Part shown: one piece after another, positions 9,551 to 18,011 of the stretch
How the letters are laid out: every line of letters starts with the position of its first letter
Position numbering within the stretch: position 1 is the stretch's first letter
Assembly: GCA_022759145.1 (NCBI GenBank)
Contig: JAEMPV010000050.1
Span: 15,619 to 49,691 of the forward strand
DNA: 34,073 bases
Direction: 5' to 3'
Origin: Caldisericum sp.
Lineage (GTDB): Bacteria > Caldisericota > Caldisericia > Caldisericales > Caldisericaceae
Notes under the pieces: model-generated
What the model was told of the DNA's origin: nothing
What the model saw: only the letters and a program-made list of their open reading frames with translations
Databases searched by the model: none
Translations under genes and position numbers: made by a program

Positions 9551-11275
9551 TTAATAGTCAATTGTTAGCGTGATCTTTCCGTTCTTTATTTGCTCTTTTA
9601 TTACATCGCTTGACTTGTTTGCAAGATCGTTAAGAAAGTTAATTCTATCGTTTTCTTTCATAAGTTTTGGTTGCGATTCTGTTAATGAAACGGGCTCTAT
9701 GGTAAATTCAAATGATTTTCCGTATTTTGTTACAAAAACGATCAAGCCTTCCTGTGTTTCTTTTGAAAAATACTGGTCGAAAACGAAATTCCCAAGCGAA
9801 TAAAATATAAGGGTTTTGATGTTTCGTTTTTTTGATTCATACAATTCGATATCTTTCACAACATGGGGATGGCTTCCTATAATGAGGTCTGCACCGGCAT
9901 CAATAAGTGTATGCGCAAGATACCTATCACTATAAGTGCTTTTTCCAATATACTCTTCTCCAAAATGCATGACCATGATAACAAAACTATTTTCGTGGCT
10001 TTCTTTTATATCTCTTATCCATTCCGAAACTTCATCGAGATTAAAGGGATATGTTGCGTTAAATCCCACTAAAACAACACCGTTTTTCTCTATAATGCGT
10101 GAATTTTTAAAGTTAGTTGGTTCACCAAAAAAGTCAATGCCACCTTTTTGTAGAATTTCCTTAGTTTGGGAGATGCCGTTTAAACCCATATTATCGGTGT
10201 GGTTGTTTGCAAGAGAAAGTGCATTGAAGTGAGCGTACTGTAGCGTTTGAATAACATCTTTATCGAAGCAGAATCTCAAAGAGCCTCTTTCGAAATTTAC
10301 TTTTTTATAGGCAATTGGTCCTTCAAGGTTTCCGACTGCTAAGTCAATGCCTCTAAACGCCTGTTCAATATAGTAAAATGGGTAGAAATATGAATTTGAT
10401 AAAATTTTTTGATATACACCCCTATCAAGCATAATATCACCTACAAAAGAAAGAGTAGTGGGTTCATTGTTTTGATGAGATAATTTGCCTTTCTTGAAAA
10501 TACAGCTCACATAGGATGTTGAACTTGTGAGGTATTCTTTTGAATAGTCCTGGGCGTTTTTGTGCGCAAGGATTTCGTAATCGCCATAGCCTCTTAGGAT
10601 TGAAATGTATCTTAAGATGTACAAACTTTGCCACGAGTCAACATCGATTGTTGGAAATTCGTTTTCTACAAAATTTGTAAGTACTCTTATGCTTTTCTTA
10701 TCGTGGACATCCTCAATTTCTTTGGGAAGATAGTGCGAAAAATCTACACTTGCAATAACAAAAGTGTCAACAGGAAGTGTGCTATTCAAAAGTGATGCAA
10801 AATTTTTTGCTTCATCCATTGTAACCTTAGGACTTACAAGAATTGGTAGTATTAGGCTTTCGCCAAAATATTCTTTAATGAATGGAAGATGATTTGCAAT
10901 CCCATGGTCTAAATAAATCGCAGTATTATCCTCTTTAATGTTAAATTGCTTTTTAAGGATATTAATTTCATCGGTTGCAACTTTAAAATCGAGAAATTGC
11001 GATTCTGAAGTGATGAATGAAACGCCTTCGGAAGTGCATTTCCCAAAGTGGTCAGGTGAAAGGATGACGACAATTTTCGGCTTTGCAACTTCACTTGAAA
11101 TGCGCTTGTAAAAGTCTTCAATTACATCCTTTGCTACAAGATGGTGTGGAACAACGCCGCCTAATATCTTCGGCTCAACAATTTCAGGAGCCGATATATA
11201 AGCAGGCTTTAAAATTAGTATTGTTGAAATTGCAATAAGAGCAAAGATTATTAATTTGAAAAATTGCTTATCCAT
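9551..11275 (-). CDS. Membrane-anchored MEMO-family / CapA-like metallophosphatase fusion protein
   Basis: 574 residues from ATG 11275; an in-frame ATG at 11320 would add 15 basic residues and lengthen the overlap with the upstream gene from 25 to 70 bases. Neither start has a clear Shine-Dalgarno. Residues 5-23 are a signal anchor. Residues about 36-265 are a MEMO-family domain (AmmeMemoRadiSam protein B type): His44/45 in VVPHH, His76 in SPDHF, DHGIANHLPF (123-132), and Asp178/His181 in SVDFSH are the expected metal-site residues. Residues about 275-510 are a CapA/PgsA-type calcineurin-like phosphoesterase: FVGDIMLDRG, NLEGP, NNHTDN, MHFGEEY, GSHPHV and YSLGNFVFDQ. The active domains should be outside the membrane. 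Both folds are recognised; no function is known for the combination. Confidence 0.82.
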   Translation of the reverse strand: MDKQFFKLIIFALIAISTILILKPAYISAPEIVEPKILGGVVPHHLVAKDVIEDFYKRISSEVAKPKIVVILSPDHFGKCTSEGVSFITSESQFLDFKVATDEINILKKQFNIKEDNTAIYLDHGIANHLPFIKEYFGESLILPILVSPKVTMDEAKNFASLLNSTLPVDTFVIASVDFSHYLPKEIEDVHDKKSIRVLTNFVENEFPTIDVDSWQSLYILRYISILRGYGDYEILAHKNAQDYSKEYLTSSTSYVSCIFKKGKLSHQNNEPTTLSFVGDIMLDRGVYQKILSNSYFYPFYYIEQAFRGIDLAVGNLEGPIAYKKVNFERGSLRFCFDKDVIQTLQYAHFNALSLANNHTDNMGLNGISQTKEILQKGGIDFFGEPTNFKNSRIIEKNGVVLVGFNATYPFNLDEVSEWIRDIKESHENSFVIMVMHFGEEYIGKSTYSDRYLAHTLIDAGADLIIGSHPHVVKDIELYESKKRNIKTLIFYSLGNFVFDQYFSKETQEGLIVFVTKYGKSFEFTIEPVSLTESQPKLMKENDRINFLNDLANKSSDVIKEQIKNGKITLTIDY

Positions 11276-13827
11276 TTTGGTTTCGGAGGAATTTTCCCTT
11301 CTTTTAACATACTTCGCCATTGTTCATCAGTAAGCCTATTTTCCATAGGATACTTAAACTCATAGTAAGAAAACACAGGACCAACCGCAAGATGTATGTT
11401 TCCTTTTTCATCAGGGCATGCAACAAGAATTGTATTTATATAGCCCAATCCTTCTTCAAGAACGATCTTTGTATTCCCATCCGTATGAACATCCGTTACG
11501 AGCGTTGGCTTTATAAGGTCAATATCAGTTTCTCCTGAGAATAACATCTGAGTCGCTGTATCAAAATATTCACCGATGCCTTTAACTGTATAATAGTCAG
11601 TGTCATCAAGAGGGGCATTCTCAAGTTCCTTTTTTACAATGTTAAGGAGCTTTTGAAGCAAGGTATCAATGTCATCAAGTGCATACATTTTCCACTGTAG
11701 CGTGTCCTTAATTTTTCCATCTGTTGTTTTATCTTCTATCTTTTGAAGCCCATCTTTTGTGAGGCGTGTTAATTCAATGAGTTTTATGTAGAATTCAGGG
11801 ACTGGTTCAACATAGCCTGGGTAGGGTTTTTCTTCAGGACCGCCTTCGCCTTTTTCTGCCATTACATAACTCTGCTTTACATAAAGGACTGTATCGTGCC
11901 TTAATTCAGTCCACGATGACAGAGCCGTTTGAAGAAGTTTATCAGCATATGCATTTGTTTTCATAAAAGTTGGGAGCCCTTGCACTTCCTTCAAGAAAAG
12001 TGATGTAAGGACATCAAGCCACTTGTTGTAGAGGGTTTTATTCCACTCGTCTTTCGGTAAATTATCTATATAACTTTTAAGTTCGTTAAAGACTTTATCA
12101 TAGTCTGAGTAGTTTGTGTCCCCCTCGGCCTTCAGTAATTCAAATGCTCTATCAGAGCCAAGTAATGCCATAAGGTCGAGCCCTCTTGGGAATCCTCTTA
12201 CTTCTCGTCCCTTACATCCCTCTACAGATGTTTTTACCCAGGTAAACGGTCTGTTTTCTTCTGAGTCTTTATACTTGTCATACCAGGTGTAAGTAAAAGG
12301 AAGGTTAGTTATGGGAAGAGGAGTTTTCTCCCCTGTGTATTCGCCCGAAAAGGGCGAGACAATCCTTGAGAAAAGATAAGAATCGATTGTGAATCTTTGT
12401 CCAAGTAGTCTCATACCTTTTGTCTCTTTAAGAAGTTTTAGATTTGTTTCTTTAAGATGTTCGATGTCTTCCTTGCTTAATGGAGGGCAAGGCATTGGCA
12501 TCTCACAGGCGCCTAAACCGCTATAGATTTGAGGATCCCTTAGTTTTTGAAGTTCAGCTTTTATTGTATCAAATTGCGATATTATATCCTTTTCACTTGA
12601 ATTGTCTTTAAGAAATCCATTTAAGATACGAGCATATTCGTAAGGCGTTATGTCGTCTGAGAATCCTACAAGAAAAGATGTGATTTCGTAAATTGTTGAC
12701 CACTTATTCTGTGCATCTTCAGATTTAAGAAAATCGTATGATATGAATAACCCCTGTAAAGTTTGAATTTTTGCATCATAAATAGAAATGATTCCATCAT
12801 AAAAGCCGCATTCTGATTCCCCCTCTTGTATTTGTGAAGAGCCATTAAGTAGGAAAGTCATCCTTCCATACCACATAAGAGTTTTGAAGTATGATTTTAG
12901 AGTTTCTGACTCCGTGTAATGCCCCCGTGGTATATATTGAGAGTAATCTTCCTTATAGAGGAATATTTTTGAGTTCTCGAAACCATTATGTTTATTGATG
13001 AGCGCTAATTCTTGTTCTACAAGGTCTTTTACGCTTGCATCGACACGGAAATTTGGATCTTGAAGTAACTCCGCTACTCCAAAGAATGCAAGGTTTCTTT
13101 TTGCAACTTCTTTTATAATAGGGTCATCCGTATTCTTGTATCTTTTGAGGTTTTCATTGTAGAAATAATCCGTGAGGTCTTTTATATACTGAGCAAAGAC
13201 ATTCTTCTCAAAATCGATAAGTGTCCTCTCAAAAAAGATATGGTAGAAGTGGAGAATGGAGTCAGTAGTTATGTAAACTGGGATTTCCTTTTCCTGAAGC
13301 GCAAGGTAGTATGAAAAGAAATCTTCCTTTGGAGAAATTGTTTCAGGATACTGAACATACCTTGTCGAGATCTTCATATCTCCTATTTCCTTTGGCGTTT
13401 CTATTACAACAAAGCCGTTCTTCTTAAGGATATTAAGTGCAGTTGCTCCAACAGTTATTTTCCCTTGAATTGTTTTGAGATTGAGGATATTGGAAAGGCT
13501 TAGAGGAAGTGCATATTGTTTTGCGTGTGGATTTATTGTAAATTCAATTGGTGTTGTCTTTGCTTCAAAAGATTTGCTCATCACAAACTCAATTTTTTGT
13601 TGTGTGTTCGTTCCACCCCCTTGGTTTTCACCTTGCCCGGGCTGTTCCTGTGTGATCGTTCCGTTCTGTGAGTTTCCGCCGTTTCCCTGTTGTCCATTTG
13701 AGGGATTTTGGGTATTTCCATTGTTTGCAACCTCATTAGCATTTTTGTGTAAAGCAAAATAGACTGATACACCCACAAGTGACACAACAAGCGCCAAAAT
13801 GATTGCATACAAAATTACTTTTTTCAT
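11251..13827 (-). CDS. DUF3160 family protein, membrane-anchored
   Basis: 858 residues from ATG 13827, which has GGAGGAGG five bases upstream; the earlier ATG 13842 lies upstream of this site. Residues 4-26 are a hydrophobic anchor without a lipobox. Residues about 29-78 are a low-complexity linker rich in Asn, Gln and Gly, typical of a flexible stalk outside the membrane. The rest, from about residue 85, is a large globular region with DUF3160 hallmarks: TTDSILHFYH (188-197), ELRHDTVLYVKQSYV (641-655) and GYVEPVPEFY (671-680). DUF3160 proteins occur in various thermophiles and anaerobes and have no known activity. The gene overlaps the MEMO-CapA gene by 25 bases, so the two are co-expressed and probably act together on the cell surface. 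Many conserved His/Asp/Glu suggest an enzyme, but this is a guess. Confidence 0.85.
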   Translation of the reverse strand: MKKVILYAIILALVVSLVGVSVYFALHKNANEVANNGNTQNPSNGQQGNGGNSQNGTITQEQPGQGENQGGGTNTQQKIEFVMSKSFEAKTTPIEFTINPHAKQYALPLSLSNILNLKTIQGKITVGATALNILKKNGFVVIETPKEIGDMKISTRYVQYPETISPKEDFFSYYLALQEKEIPVYITTDSILHFYHIFFERTLIDFEKNVFAQYIKDLTDYFYNENLKRYKNTDDPIIKEVAKRNLAFFGVAELLQDPNFRVDASVKDLVEQELALINKHNGFENSKIFLYKEDYSQYIPRGHYTESETLKSYFKTLMWYGRMTFLLNGSSQIQEGESECGFYDGIISIYDAKIQTLQGLFISYDFLKSEDAQNKWSTIYEITSFLVGFSDDITPYEYARILNGFLKDNSSEKDIISQFDTIKAELQKLRDPQIYSGLGACEMPMPCPPLSKEDIEHLKETNLKLLKETKGMRLLGQRFTIDSYLFSRIVSPFSGEYTGEKTPLPITNLPFTYTWYDKYKDSEENRPFTWVKTSVEGCKGREVRGFPRGLDLMALLGSDRAFELLKAEGDTNYSDYDKVFNELKSYIDNLPKDEWNKTLYNKWLDVLTSLFLKEVQGLPTFMKTNAYADKLLQTALSSWTELRHDTVLYVKQSYVMAEKGEGGPEEKPYPGYVEPVPEFYIKLIELTRLTKDGLQKIEDKTTDGKIKDTLQWKMYALDDIDTLLQKLLNIVKKELENAPLDDTDYYTVKGIGEYFDTATQMLFSGETDIDLIKPTLVTDVHTDGNTKIVLEEGLGYINTILVACPDEKGNIHLAVGPVFSYYEFKYPMENRLTDEQWRSMLKEGKIPPKPKWISNFSN

Positions 13828-13884
13828 AAATACCTCCTCCAAAAATATTTTAATACTTTACTCCAAATATTAGATAACTGATCT

Positions 13885-14389: not shown

Positions 14390-16699
14390 TTATTTTCTTT
14401 TTTCTTTTAATGCCTTTAGAACCTTATCAGGTGTGTATGGTGAACTTCCGAGCCTTATTCCGAGTGCATCATAAAGTGCGTTACCAATTGCAGGGATTGG
14501 ACCATTTATATTAATCTCTGAAACTGATTTTGCGCCGAGTGGACCTGTAGGCTCGTATGTTTCAACAAGTATTGGAACAATCTCAGGAATATCTCTTGAG
14601 GATGGGATCCTATACTCCATAAAGTTAGGATTGAGAACCTTGCCATTTTCTCCGAACTTGTACTCTTCAGTCAGTGCATATCCAATACCATTTACAATTG
14701 CACCTATTATCTGTCCTTTTGTAAGTTCGGGGTTTATAACAACACCGCAATCAACCGCTGCTACATATTTAATTGGTGTGATAACGCCGGTTTCCTCATC
14801 AACCTCAATTTCTACAAAGTGAGCTGCAAATGGTGGTGGTGAAGATTCAGATACAAATGAACCAACAGCCATTATCTGTTTTTGTTTCTTTACATAGAAT
14901 GTATCGTATGCAATTTCTGAAAGGCTTACACGTTTTCCACTCCTTGGCGAGATAACAAATCCATCTTTAAGTATGTAATCTTTGCTATCCTGTTCCCCAA
15001 ACATATCTTTTGCAACTTCTAGGATCTGGTCTCTTAATTTGAGAGCGGTATTATAGACTGCACTTCCAGAGATGAATGTGCCCGAGGATGCGTAAGCGCC
15101 TTTATCAAAAGGAGTGATATCTGTATCTGAGGGATAGACGATGACCTTCTTAGGATCAATTCCAAGTACTTCGCCCACGATTTGTGCAACAACAGTGTCA
15201 AGTCCTGTTCCAATATCAGTTCCACCGTAAAGGACATTAACAGAACCATCCTCATTCAACTTGATTGATGCAGAGCCCATATCGATTTTTGGAATACCAG
15301 AGCCCTGCATATGCAGCGACATGCCCACACCTCTAACTTTTGAGCCATTTCTCACTTTTTTGCCCCATTTTTCATAGAAGCCAATTTCCTTTGCGCCTAA
15401 CTCGAGAAGTTTATCAACCGCTTCGCTTTCAATGTACTGGACGACACCTTCCCTTCCCTCTCCAAGTGCCTCAAATATTGGGGAAGTTTCGCCTTTTCTT
15501 ATGTGGTTTATTTTTCTTATTGCAATTGGATCTAATCCAAGTTTTTCTGCAACCATATCAACCGTTTGTTCAAGGCATGCATAACCCTGTGTTGCACCAT
15601 ACCCTCTGTATGCGCCTGGCACCGGGAGGTTCGTATAGACGACATCTGCTACAAATTCAACATTTGGTGCTTTATTATAAAGTGGTAGTGTTTTTGAGCC
15701 AGTGTTCGAAGCAACAGTAAGCCCGTGTGTGCCGTATGCGCCTGTATTGCTTAATGCATACATCTTTATAGCAGTAAATCTTCCATCCTTCTTTGCACCA
15801 ATTTTTACTGTTATTTTCATTGGGTGTCTTGTCCTTGATGAAATAAACTCTTCTTCTCTTGTATATACTGCTCTTGCTGGTCTTCCAGTTTTCATTGTTA
15901 CAAATGCGCAGACTTCTTCGAGGATTATCTCTTGTTTGCTTCCAAATCCTCCGCCAATCCTTGGCTTAATTACTCTTATTTGCGATACCGGGATTCCTAA
16001 AACCTGTGCAACGATTCTTCTTACATGGAATGGTACCTGTGTGGAAGACCTTATAACTATTCTTCCATTCTCATCAAGATAAGATATTGTTGCGTGAGTT
16101 TCTATGGGGCAGTGCTGAGCAAATTGCGTTTCAAATGTGTGCTCAACAACAACATCTGCTTCTTCGAAACCTTTCTCAACATCGCCTGCTTTGACTTCGA
16201 TATGAGCAACCAGGTTCCTTTTTGCATCGTAAGTGCCTTGAGGGTTTTCCTCGTGAATTATCGGTGCTCCTTCTTTCATCGCTTCTTCTGGATCAAACAC
16301 TGCAGGAAGCACATTATATTTAACCTTTATGAGTTTGAGTGCCTCTAACGCAATCTCCTCTGATTCTGCAGCAACAGCTGCAACTCTATCACCAACAAAC
16401 CTTACATGTTGATTGAACATACAGGTATCGTATGGAGATGGTTCTGGCCATCCCTGTCCTGCTGTAGTGTGGTAAACCTGCGGAGTGTTCTTGTATGTTA
16501 AAACCATATGAACGCCAGGAAGTTTTTCTGCTTCCGTTGTGTCAATGTCTTCAATAATTGCATTTGCGTGAGGTGAATAAAGGAATTTTATGTGAAGCGT
16601 ATTTGGAAGTTTTATATCGTCAGCATAAACTGGTTGTCCTGTTGCAAGAGCAAGAGCATCAATTTTTTCAACATTTTTCCCAATTACTTGCTTTTCCAT
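14390..16699 (-). CDS. Xanthine dehydrogenase family, molybdopterin-binding large subunit
   Basis: 769 residues with AAGGAGGGG before the ATG. Large subunit of a three-protein molybdenum hydroxylase. Seen: GRPVYADDIKLP-type N-terminus (TGQPVYADDIKLPN), FVGDRVAAVAAES, the Moco-contacting IGGGFGSKQE, VPGAYRGYGATQGY, GGTDIGTGLDTVV and the terminal GAKSVSE with the catalytic Glu728. The AYRGYGATQ loop is not the AYxCSFR loop of aerobic CO dehydrogenase, so it is not a CO oxidiser. The substrate may be a purine, another N-heterocycle or an aldehyde; sequence does not decide. Its start overlaps the stop of the iron-sulfur subunit by one base (TAATG). No maturation factor (XdhC or MocA-like) is adjacent. 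Confidence 0.88.
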   Translation of the reverse strand: MEKQVIGKNVEKIDALALATGQPVYADDIKLPNTLHIKFLYSPHANAIIEDIDTTEAEKLPGVHMVLTYKNTPQVYHTTAGQGWPEPSPYDTCMFNQHVRFVGDRVAAVAAESEEIALEALKLIKVKYNVLPAVFDPEEAMKEGAPIIHEENPQGTYDAKRNLVAHIEVKAGDVEKGFEEADVVVEHTFETQFAQHCPIETHATISYLDENGRIVIRSSTQVPFHVRRIVAQVLGIPVSQIRVIKPRIGGGFGSKQEIILEEVCAFVTMKTGRPARAVYTREEEFISSRTRHPMKITVKIGAKKDGRFTAIKMYALSNTGAYGTHGLTVASNTGSKTLPLYNKAPNVEFVADVVYTNLPVPGAYRGYGATQGYACLEQTVDMVAEKLGLDPIAIRKINHIRKGETSPIFEALGEGREGVVQYIESEAVDKLLELGAKEIGFYEKWGKKVRNGSKVRGVGMSLHMQGSGIPKIDMGSASIKLNEDGSVNVLYGGTDIGTGLDTVVAQIVGEVLGIDPKKVIVYPSDTDITPFDKGAYASSGTFISGSAVYNTALKLRDQILEVAKDMFGEQDSKDYILKDGFVISPRSGKRVSLSEIAYDTFYVKKQKQIMAVGSFVSESSPPPFAAHFVEIEVDEETGVITPIKYVAAVDCGVVINPELTKGQIIGAIVNGIGYALTEEYKFGENGKVLNPNFMEYRIPSSRDIPEIVPILVETYEPTGPLGAKSVSEININGPIPAIGNALYDALGIRLGSSPYTPDKVLKALKEKRK

Positions 16700-17166
16700 T
16701 ATTTCCCCTCCTTAAGAAGTGTTATCGCATACTTAATTGCCTCAACCTGCTGAACATATCCTGTGCATCTACAGAGATTCCCATCAATTGCTTTCTTTAT
16801 ATCCTCATCAGTTGGATTTGGATTCTCCTTTAGCAGTGCATATGCTGCAAGAATTGTCCCGGGAGTGCAGTAACCACACTGGACTGCTCCTTTCTCAACA
16901 AATGCTTTTTGAAGTGGATGCGGATTTAAAATATCTCCCAAGCCTTTTACTGTTGTAATTTCTGCACCGTTTATCTGAGCTGCAAGTACAGTGCAACTTG
17001 TTTTAGGAGTGCCATTTATAAGTACCGTACATGCACCACATGTCCCCATGTAGCAATTCCCTTTTACCTCAGTAAAGCCATTTTCTCTTAGGACATCTAA
17101 AAGGACTTTACCAGGATGGATGTCAAATTCGTAATCCTTGCCGTTAATTTTGTAGTGAACTTTCAT
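16699..17166 (-). CDS. Xanthine dehydrogenase family, 2Fe-2S subunit
   Basis: 155 residues. The N-terminal plant-type 2Fe-2S domain has CYMGTCGACTVLINGTPKTSC (about 38-58), and the C-terminal helical domain has CGYCTPG and LCRCTGY, which together ligate two 2Fe-2S clusters. It carries electrons from the Moco subunit to the FAD subunit. The usual CREGECGAC is CYMGTCGAC here, but all ligand cysteines are kept. It starts 2 bases after the FAD-subunit gene ends and runs with a one-base overlap into the large-subunit gene, so the three are one operon in the order FAD, Fe-S, Moco. Confidence 0.93.
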   Translation of the reverse strand: MKVHYKINGKDYEFDIHPGKVLLDVLRENGFTEVKGNCYMGTCGACTVLINGTPKTSCTVLAAQINGAEITTVKGLGDILNPHPLQKAFVEKGAVQCGYCTPGTILAAYALLKENPNPTDEDIKKAIDGNLCRCTGYVQQVEAIKYAITLLKEGK

Positions 17167-17168
17167 CT

Positions 17169-18011
17169 CTACCTCCCAAATGATTCAAGCAATCTTTTAG
17201 CAAATACGCCTGTAAGTTCTCTTCTATATTGCTCGTCTCTTCTTATATCGCCTTTCACATCAGCGTTTTCTTTTGCAAAATTATAGACTTCTTTCACTGC
17301 CTCGTTTAAGTCTTTCCCTTTTAGGAAATCTTCAAGGGCTTTAAACCTTATAGCAGGCATTGGCCTTGAACCATAACTTACAATAATATCTTTTATCTTG
17401 TTCTCTTCAATTTGAGCAAGCATAGCCATATTAAGAAGGGTAATGTCAGTTGCATTCCTTACATGCCTTTCCATTCCGAATTTGTAGGAGGAATCAAACT
17501 TCTTGAATCTTACTTCTTTGATGATAGCATCTTTGAGTTTTGCCCTGAAGTCAGTTTCGAAAAATTCATCTATCTTCTCTGTGTGTTCACTTCCATCAAA
17601 GTAAACTACCTCTGCATCGAGAGCAAGAAGTATTGTTGAAATGTCTGAATAGGGTTCCCTTTGAGCAACAGATCCTCCGAAAGTAATCTGATTTCTTAAT
17701 AGTTCCGATGCAATTAAAGACAAAGCACTGGATAAGTTGCCACTAAAAAGTCCCTTAATTAAATCTGATTTTGCGGCGTTATTTATTGTTACTGTTGCGC
17801 CAATTGAAACTGTACCGTTTTCCTCCCTAATGTAGTTTAAACCAAGGTTATCAAGGAAGATAAAGTACTCGACCTGGGGGTTTGGGAATACAGTTAGATG
17901 TAATCCACCACCAACCACCTTTGCTTTATCACCTTTTTCTCTTAAAATTGCAATTGCTTCTTCAAGCGTTTTAGGATAAAAGCATTCTTCAACATTTTTT
18001 AATTTTAACAT
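17169..18011 (-). CDS. Xanthine dehydrogenase family, FAD-binding subunit
   Basis: 280 residues, the standard size of the CoxM/XdhB family. FAD-binding landmarks: AKVVGGGLHL (about 31-40), VSIGATVTINNAAKS, and LRNQITFGGSVAQREPYSDIST, corresponding to the family's RN-GTIGGN-A-P-SD region; the first glycine there is replaced (QITFGG). It passes electrons from the 2Fe-2S subunit to an acceptor, likely NAD or a ferredoxin in an anaerobe. First gene of the operon, with AAGGAGGT (18025-18018) upstream of its ATG and a divergent promoter shared with the lipoprotein gene. Confidence 0.88.
   Translation of the reverse strand: MLKLKNVEECFYPKTLEEAIAILREKGDKAKVVGGGLHLTVFPNPQVEYFIFLDNLGLNYIREENGTVSIGATVTINNAAKSDLIKGLFSGNLSSALSLIASELLRNQITFGGSVAQREPYSDISTILLALDAEVVYFDGSEHTEKIDEFFETDFRAKLKDAIIKEVRFKKFDSSYKFGMERHVRNATDITLLNMAMLAQIEENKIKDIIVSYGSRPMPAIRFKALEDFLKGKDLNEAVKEVYNFAKENADVKGDIRRDEQYRRELTGVFAKRLLESFGR

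Follow-up and report, generated by a model that had tools for sequence, protein, structure and literature searches.

A predicted exported MEMO–CapA fusion protein of Caldisericum and the apparent pairing of exported MEMO proteins with three unrelated families of large surface proteins

The window analyzed here is a 34,073-nucleotide stretch of DNA from Caldisericum sp., a heat-loving, oxygen-avoiding bacterium. On its minus strand lies a gene for a predicted exported protein in which a MEMO domain is followed by a CapA-type metallophosphoesterase domain. The reading frame begins at an ATG at position 11275 and encodes 574 amino acids; an alternative in-frame ATG upstream, at 11320, would give a protein of 589 amino acids. 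Residue numbers throughout refer to the 574-residue form, except for the Pfam Memo match, which is numbered on the 589-residue form. A gene for an exported DUF3160 protein lies upstream in the same direction, the two reading frames sharing about 25 bases. The features of the two genes are as follows.

9551..11275, minus strand: MEMO–CapA fusion gene, 574 aa, predicted exported (open reading frame, Pfam, NCBIfam, AlphaFold, Foldseek)
11210..11275, minus strand: predicted transmembrane anchor, N-terminal helix, residues 2-21 (AlphaFold helix; Kyte-Doolittle 2.71 over 18 residues)
10481..11170, minus strand: MEMO domain, residues 36-265 (Pfam PF01875; hhalign E 1.6e-30; Foldseek to MEMO1)
11144..11146, minus strand: H44, equivalent of MEMO1 ligand H49 (His in 77/77 members covering the position)
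11048..11050, minus strand: H76, equivalent of MEMO1 ligand H81 (His in 77/77 members covering the position)
10733..10744, minus strand: D178-F-S-H181, counterpart of D189/H192, which lie near the metal in MEMO1 (profile alignment, residue counts)
10637..10639, minus strand: D213, at the place of MEMO1 ligand C244 (Asp in 80/80 members)
9773..10456, minus strand: CapA/PGA_cap metallophosphoesterase domain, residues 274-501 (Pfam PF09587 E 9e-53; residue counts; MslH fold match)
11251..13842, minus strand: partner gene, exported DUF3160 protein, 863 aa (Pfam PF11369 E 3e-184)

The initial annotation of this gene had proposed one membrane-anchored protein joining MEMO to a CapA-like metallophosphatase, and had named a profile search of residues 36-265 as a test for MEMO. 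The search found it: Pfam Memo (PF01875) matched residues 62-222 of the 589-residue form (E 9.2e-13; 48.4 bits against a cut-off of 27), and the NCBIfam model AmmeMemoSam_B also matched the protein (E 4e-15). In a profile–profile comparison with hhalign, the MEMO half of the family aligned over the whole domain with 25 canonical MEMO proteins (probability 99.85, E 1.6e-30). A sequence-profile search of the Protein Data Bank (PDB) with the MEMO half alone returned nothing real, and the link to MEMO1 emerged solely from the profile–profile and fold comparisons. PGA_cap (PF09587) matched above its curated cut-off (E 9e-53) over profile positions 1-255 of 255, indicating a complete domain. The AlphaFold model, for which 49 fusion proteins served as alignment input, had a pLDDT of 94.9 and a pTM of 0.90 and comprised helix 2-21, a short linker of low confidence and then the two domains. 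When this model was compared with the PDB using Foldseek, the CapA-fold enzyme MslH (E 3e-17) and human MEMO1 (E 2e-10; 7m8h/7kq8) were retrieved, followed by LigB-type dioxygenases, confirming both halves of the fusion independently of Pfam. A hydrophobic N-terminal segment precedes the MEMO domain in 91 of 97 family members. The architecture first proposed is thus borne out: the protein is membrane-anchored and extracytoplasmic with two metal-site domains, the anchor being predicted.

Human MEMO1 binds iron or copper via H49, H81 and C244, with D189 and H192 close by; the C244S mutation abolishes iron binding, and dioxygenase assays on the protein were negative (PMC11081632). Transferring the MEMO1 numbering to the profile alignment, with the PHAGY, P-x-H and CG motifs as conserved anchor points, showed that the equivalents of H49, H81, D189 and H192 are kept in the fusion, and that C244 is replaced by D213 in all 80 members. 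The domain is therefore homologous to MEMO1 but lacks the MEMO1-type metal site. Alignment counts further showed that D178, H181, D192 and D213 are invariant across the 80 members. Two peptide patterns had been used in the genome scan, one holding D178/H181 and the other D213; because the first was itself a search pattern, the conservation of D178/H181 arises partly by selection. The D213 pattern, by contrast, was unmatched by 64 of the 80 members, so that the conservation of D213 is no product of the search. Judging from the alignment to the MEMO1 ligands, replacement of Cys244 by Asp213 would restore a His-His-carboxylate set (H44, H76, D213), as in the two-His-one-carboxylate site of LigB-type enzymes. 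The near-invariance of H44, H76, D178, H181, D192 and D213 is what an active site would be expected to show.

The CapA half retains its site. For D280, E318, N358, H359, H437, H469 and H471, 46-49 of the 49 fusions have the same residue; for the CapA ligand residues among them (E318, N358, H359, H437, H471), the count is 47-49. The earlier statement that metal-site residues are preserved consequently holds for the CapA residues and for H44 and H76 of MEMO, but not for the third MEMO ligand, Cys244. We infer from these patterns that metal is bound and catalysis takes place at the conserved sites of the fusion. The nearest solved structure to the CapA half, in both fold and sequence, is the lasso-peptide epimerase MslH (PDB 8gq9), whose Ca ligands are E44, N87, H259 and H261 and whose catalytic dyads are H88/D91 and H295/D11 (PMC10406935). 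Counterparts of E44, N87, H88, H259, D11 and H295 were all found in the fusion. However, the Ca ligand H261 corresponds to G439, with Gly in 46 of the 49 fusions, and Asp91 corresponds to N362 here and to Asn in 10 other fusions (Asp in 38/49). On these two changes, an MslH-type peptide epimerase was rejected. Conversely, the fusion has a His (H469), part of the two-metal GHxH motif, at a position occupied by Gly in MslH, and on residue comparison the site looks more like that of an ordinary two-metal phosphoesterase than that of the epimerase.

The fusion recurs in Caldisericota and in one Coprothermobacterota genome at 42-68% identity. The MEMO half alone was scanned against ~85,000 species genomes (E-values refer to candidate stretches only), yielding 191 relatives, of which the best 80 were analyzed as loci. 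Among these 80 and a later sample, most members consist of MEMO and a full CapA domain; in the remainder CapA is shortened, its C-terminal part is unrecognizable, or MEMO stands alone. Carriers belong to Caldisericota, Atribacterota, many Patescibacteria, Spirochaetota, Myxococcota and Bacillota. In 29 of 192 genomes drawn evenly from one Patescibacteria group, and in 8 of 120 from a Bacillota group, the match was strong (E < 1e-20). This spread across genomes and phyla excludes a lone curiosity or an assembly artefact. An origin as a viral or phage gene was also rejected, as viral contigs held no relative and the best phage matches covered CapA only. No match to a known anti-phage defence system was given by PADLOC for MEMO–CapA, DUF3160 or the other two partner families described below. 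The initial annotation had presented the fusion as a departure from what is normal for the two families; it is in fact common, although no description of it was found in the open-access literature.

In a quick tree, the canonical MEMO proteins fell on one side of a branch with an SH-aLRT of 100, so that the exported MEMO proteins form a separate clade. The genome of the window also encodes a canonical MEMO, on another contig (G000:C32), adjoining the only AMMECR1 gene of the genome; the fusion is therefore an additional, different protein. It shares fold and whole-domain homology with MEMO1 and AmmeMemoRadiSam protein B (PF01875, TIGR04336), but differs from them in being exported, anchored, fused to CapA, changed from Cys244 to Asp and encoded away from AMMECR1. 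Its neighbours are DUF3160 and PEPCK, with no AMMECR1 or radical SAM gene, and it does not belong to an AmmeMemoRadiSam system.

The most informative feature of the locus, missed by the initial annotation, is its conserved DUF3160 neighbour, together with the two alternative partners found in other genomes. DUF3160 adjoins the fusion in every Caldisericota genome with a visible flank, even where all other neighbours differ. Across the 80 loci, with partner families assigned by profiles built in this analysis and some neighbours hidden by contig ends, one of three partner families was present at position +/-1 or +/-2 on the same strand in 72; the counts were 20 for DUF3160, 41 for a family termed X and 11 for alpha-2-macroglobulin. 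Spacing in these 72 loci was usually below 50 bases or overlapping, and no other neighbour family occurred in more than 5 of the 80. As the first 80 loci had been picked by sequence pattern, a second sample was drawn by profile search; a partner accompanied the gene in 18 of the 20 Patescibacteria loci that it contained and in all 7 of its strong Bacillota loci. No copy of a partner lay nearby at L062, L074, L234 or the remote Rhizobium fusion L263. Profile comparison detected no mutual relation among DUF3160, X and alpha-2-macroglobulin, which eliminates a single partner family in disguise. Since the partners are unrelated and the tree requires about 6 partner changes, the link between MEMO and partner appears to have been remade repeatedly.

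The partner also tracks domain composition: alpha-2-macroglobulin pairs with MEMO alone (14/14), DUF3160 with full CapA (22/23) and X with all forms. At L075 and L100, CapA has a gene of its own next to those for MEMO and partner. At L183:201-4658, DUF3160 adjoins a CapA protein that has an FG-GAP-like repeat but no MEMO domain, possibly a MEMO-free version of the pair. The separate CapA genes and this CapA–DUF3160 pair speak for a genuine functional connection between the parts.

Family X proteins are exported, about 330-740 aa in length, and share a conserved C-terminal region 'GKPVIYLYP...EWGG' (GKPVIYLYPEKTT ... EWGG). They had no Pfam, NCBIfam or PDB match and are a candidate new protein family; X genes were observed at +/-1 of exported MEMO at L056-L112 and L221-L240. 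The alpha-2-macroglobulins are of the bacterial type, about 1650 aa, and in Bacillota lie directly beside exported single-domain MEMO (L085, L092, L102-L106, L108, L110, L256-L262). Their thioester CxEQ motif was seen in 2 of the 8 examined, only the Patescibacteria ones (L080, L103). For DUF3160, a sequence search of the PDB gave no relatives, and a model of moderate confidence (pLDDT 75) matched no solved fold.

Taken together, these data lead us to propose, at a probability of roughly 0.4, that the fusion is a membrane-tethered metalloenzyme, with a His-His-Asp MEMO site and a CapA site, that processes or services the co-encoded surface protein by a non-oxidative reaction. MEMO would be the constant part, a metal-dependent hydrolase or modifying enzyme that works jointly with CapA in the members that have one. 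Its target would be the large exported protein encoded alongside, which might be processed or matured, or whose ligand might be handled, at the cell surface. We infer from their adjacency that the partner is a substrate or co-factor of the MEMO protein; gene neighbourhood itself has no direction, and it leaves unspecified which of MEMO–CapA and partner acts on the other. To our knowledge, no enzyme activity is established for MEMO1 or for MEMO–AMMECR1 systems. SCOP groups the LigB-like fold with zinc exopeptidases and other hydrolases, so that MEMO could plausibly be a hydrolase itself. Most member lineages are generally held to be anaerobic. Because Caldisericum exile and an isolate of Atribacterota have both been described as anaerobes, a reaction using oxygen is unlikely, and that at MEMO–CapA would run without it, although the remote fusion in Rhizobium demonstrates that a version can occur in aerobes. 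Anaerobic hosts and a plausible hydrolase role for MEMO therefore favour a non-oxidative, metal-dependent role.

Three other explanations were weighed. The two-step chemistry first suggested for this protein, in which an extradiol-type dioxygenase and a phosphatase would act successively on a small molecule, draws on the Foldseek matches of the MEMO domain to LigB-type dioxygenases, which rank after MEMO1, and on D213, which would complete a His-His-carboxylate set like that of LigB, DesB and aminophenol dioxygenase. The MEMO domain thus appears to have both fold and ligand set in common with class III extradiol dioxygenases of the LigB type. In contrast to those enzymes, however, MEMO–CapA proteins are exported, occur mainly in anaerobic hosts and have no aromatic pathway context, such families not recurring nearby (none in more than 5 of the 80 loci). 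A complete CapA domain is missing from many members, and the Pfam LigB profile, run on the relatives, gave two matches only, both below its cut-off. Unproven and a poor fit with anaerobic Caldisericum and its mainly anaerobic relatives, this idea is very improbable. Metal handling at the surface, with MEMO as a non-catalytic iron/copper binding module and the partner as scaffold or receptor, would agree with human MEMO1, which binds both metals through H49, H81 and C244 and for which no activity was found (PMC11081632). An equivalent triad is present in the fusion, but with Asp instead of Cys, and since MEMO1 C244S loses iron binding (PMC11081632), the substitution alters the site. With no other family, hence no metal transport family, in more than 5 of 80 loci, and with the CapA domain and the alpha-2-macroglobulin partner left unexplained, we consider it unlikely.

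The protein might instead perform the usual CapA task in envelope polymer assembly, with MEMO as an accessory. It shares with the CapA/PgsA family (PF09587) the full-length domain, the metal-site residues and a membrane anchor, and is the sole PGA_cap protein of the window's genome. Unlike that family, however, its CapA domain sits C-terminal to MEMO, in a genome where a profile search did not find CapC (PF14102), the partner in poly-gamma-glutamate synthesis; a role in a poly-gamma-glutamate capsule was rejected on this ground. In Bacillota, CapA is altogether missing from the MEMO protein, and polymer synthesis families do not recur nearby either (again, none in more than 5 of 80 loci), which makes an assembly role quite improbable. 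A metalloenzyme servicing its co-encoded surface protein thus remains the reading we prefer. A broader version of it, in which uncultivated and anaerobic bacteria have an unrecognized surface system with exported MEMO as its constant enzyme, interchangeable giant partners and, optionally, CapA as a second catalytic domain, is possible, if somewhat doubtful.

Although MEMO proteins range from archaea and bacteria to humans and are relevant to cancer, the basic reaction that they carry out is not established. With its altered metal site, its export and its fixed set of partners, the bacterial branch described here offers a testable handle on the function of the fold. It also ties together DUF3160 and family X, neither of which has an assigned function, and the Bacillota alpha-2-macroglobulins. 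Were exported MEMO indeed the constant enzyme of a surface system, a MEMO-fold protein and DUF3160 would for the first time be placed in a concrete biochemical context. In the open-access literature, we found no paper on the fusion, the exported MEMO branch, the Cys-to-Asp change or the partner genes, and no functional study of DUF3160. Both domains are already known; the conserved gene association appears to be new, and a widespread exported MEMO family, nearly always beside one of three unrelated large surface proteins, has apparently gone undescribed.

Several further observations were made at individual loci. The remote MEMO–CapA fusion lies on plasmid pRL31b3 of the aerobic Rhizobium leguminosarum (L263:5761-7521); it is publicly annotated as 'AmmeMemoRadiSam system protein B', and none of the three partners adjoins it. 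The MEMO–CapA proteins of L044 (46-2952) and L046 are about 970-1020 aa long, that of L044 carrying an extra C-terminal beta-propeller. In the window, a three-subunit molybdenum hydroxylase operon (xanthine dehydrogenase-like; 14390-18011, minus strand) lies beside the fusion/DUF3160 pair, an order kept in two relatives (G003, G006) and not in other carriers of the pair.
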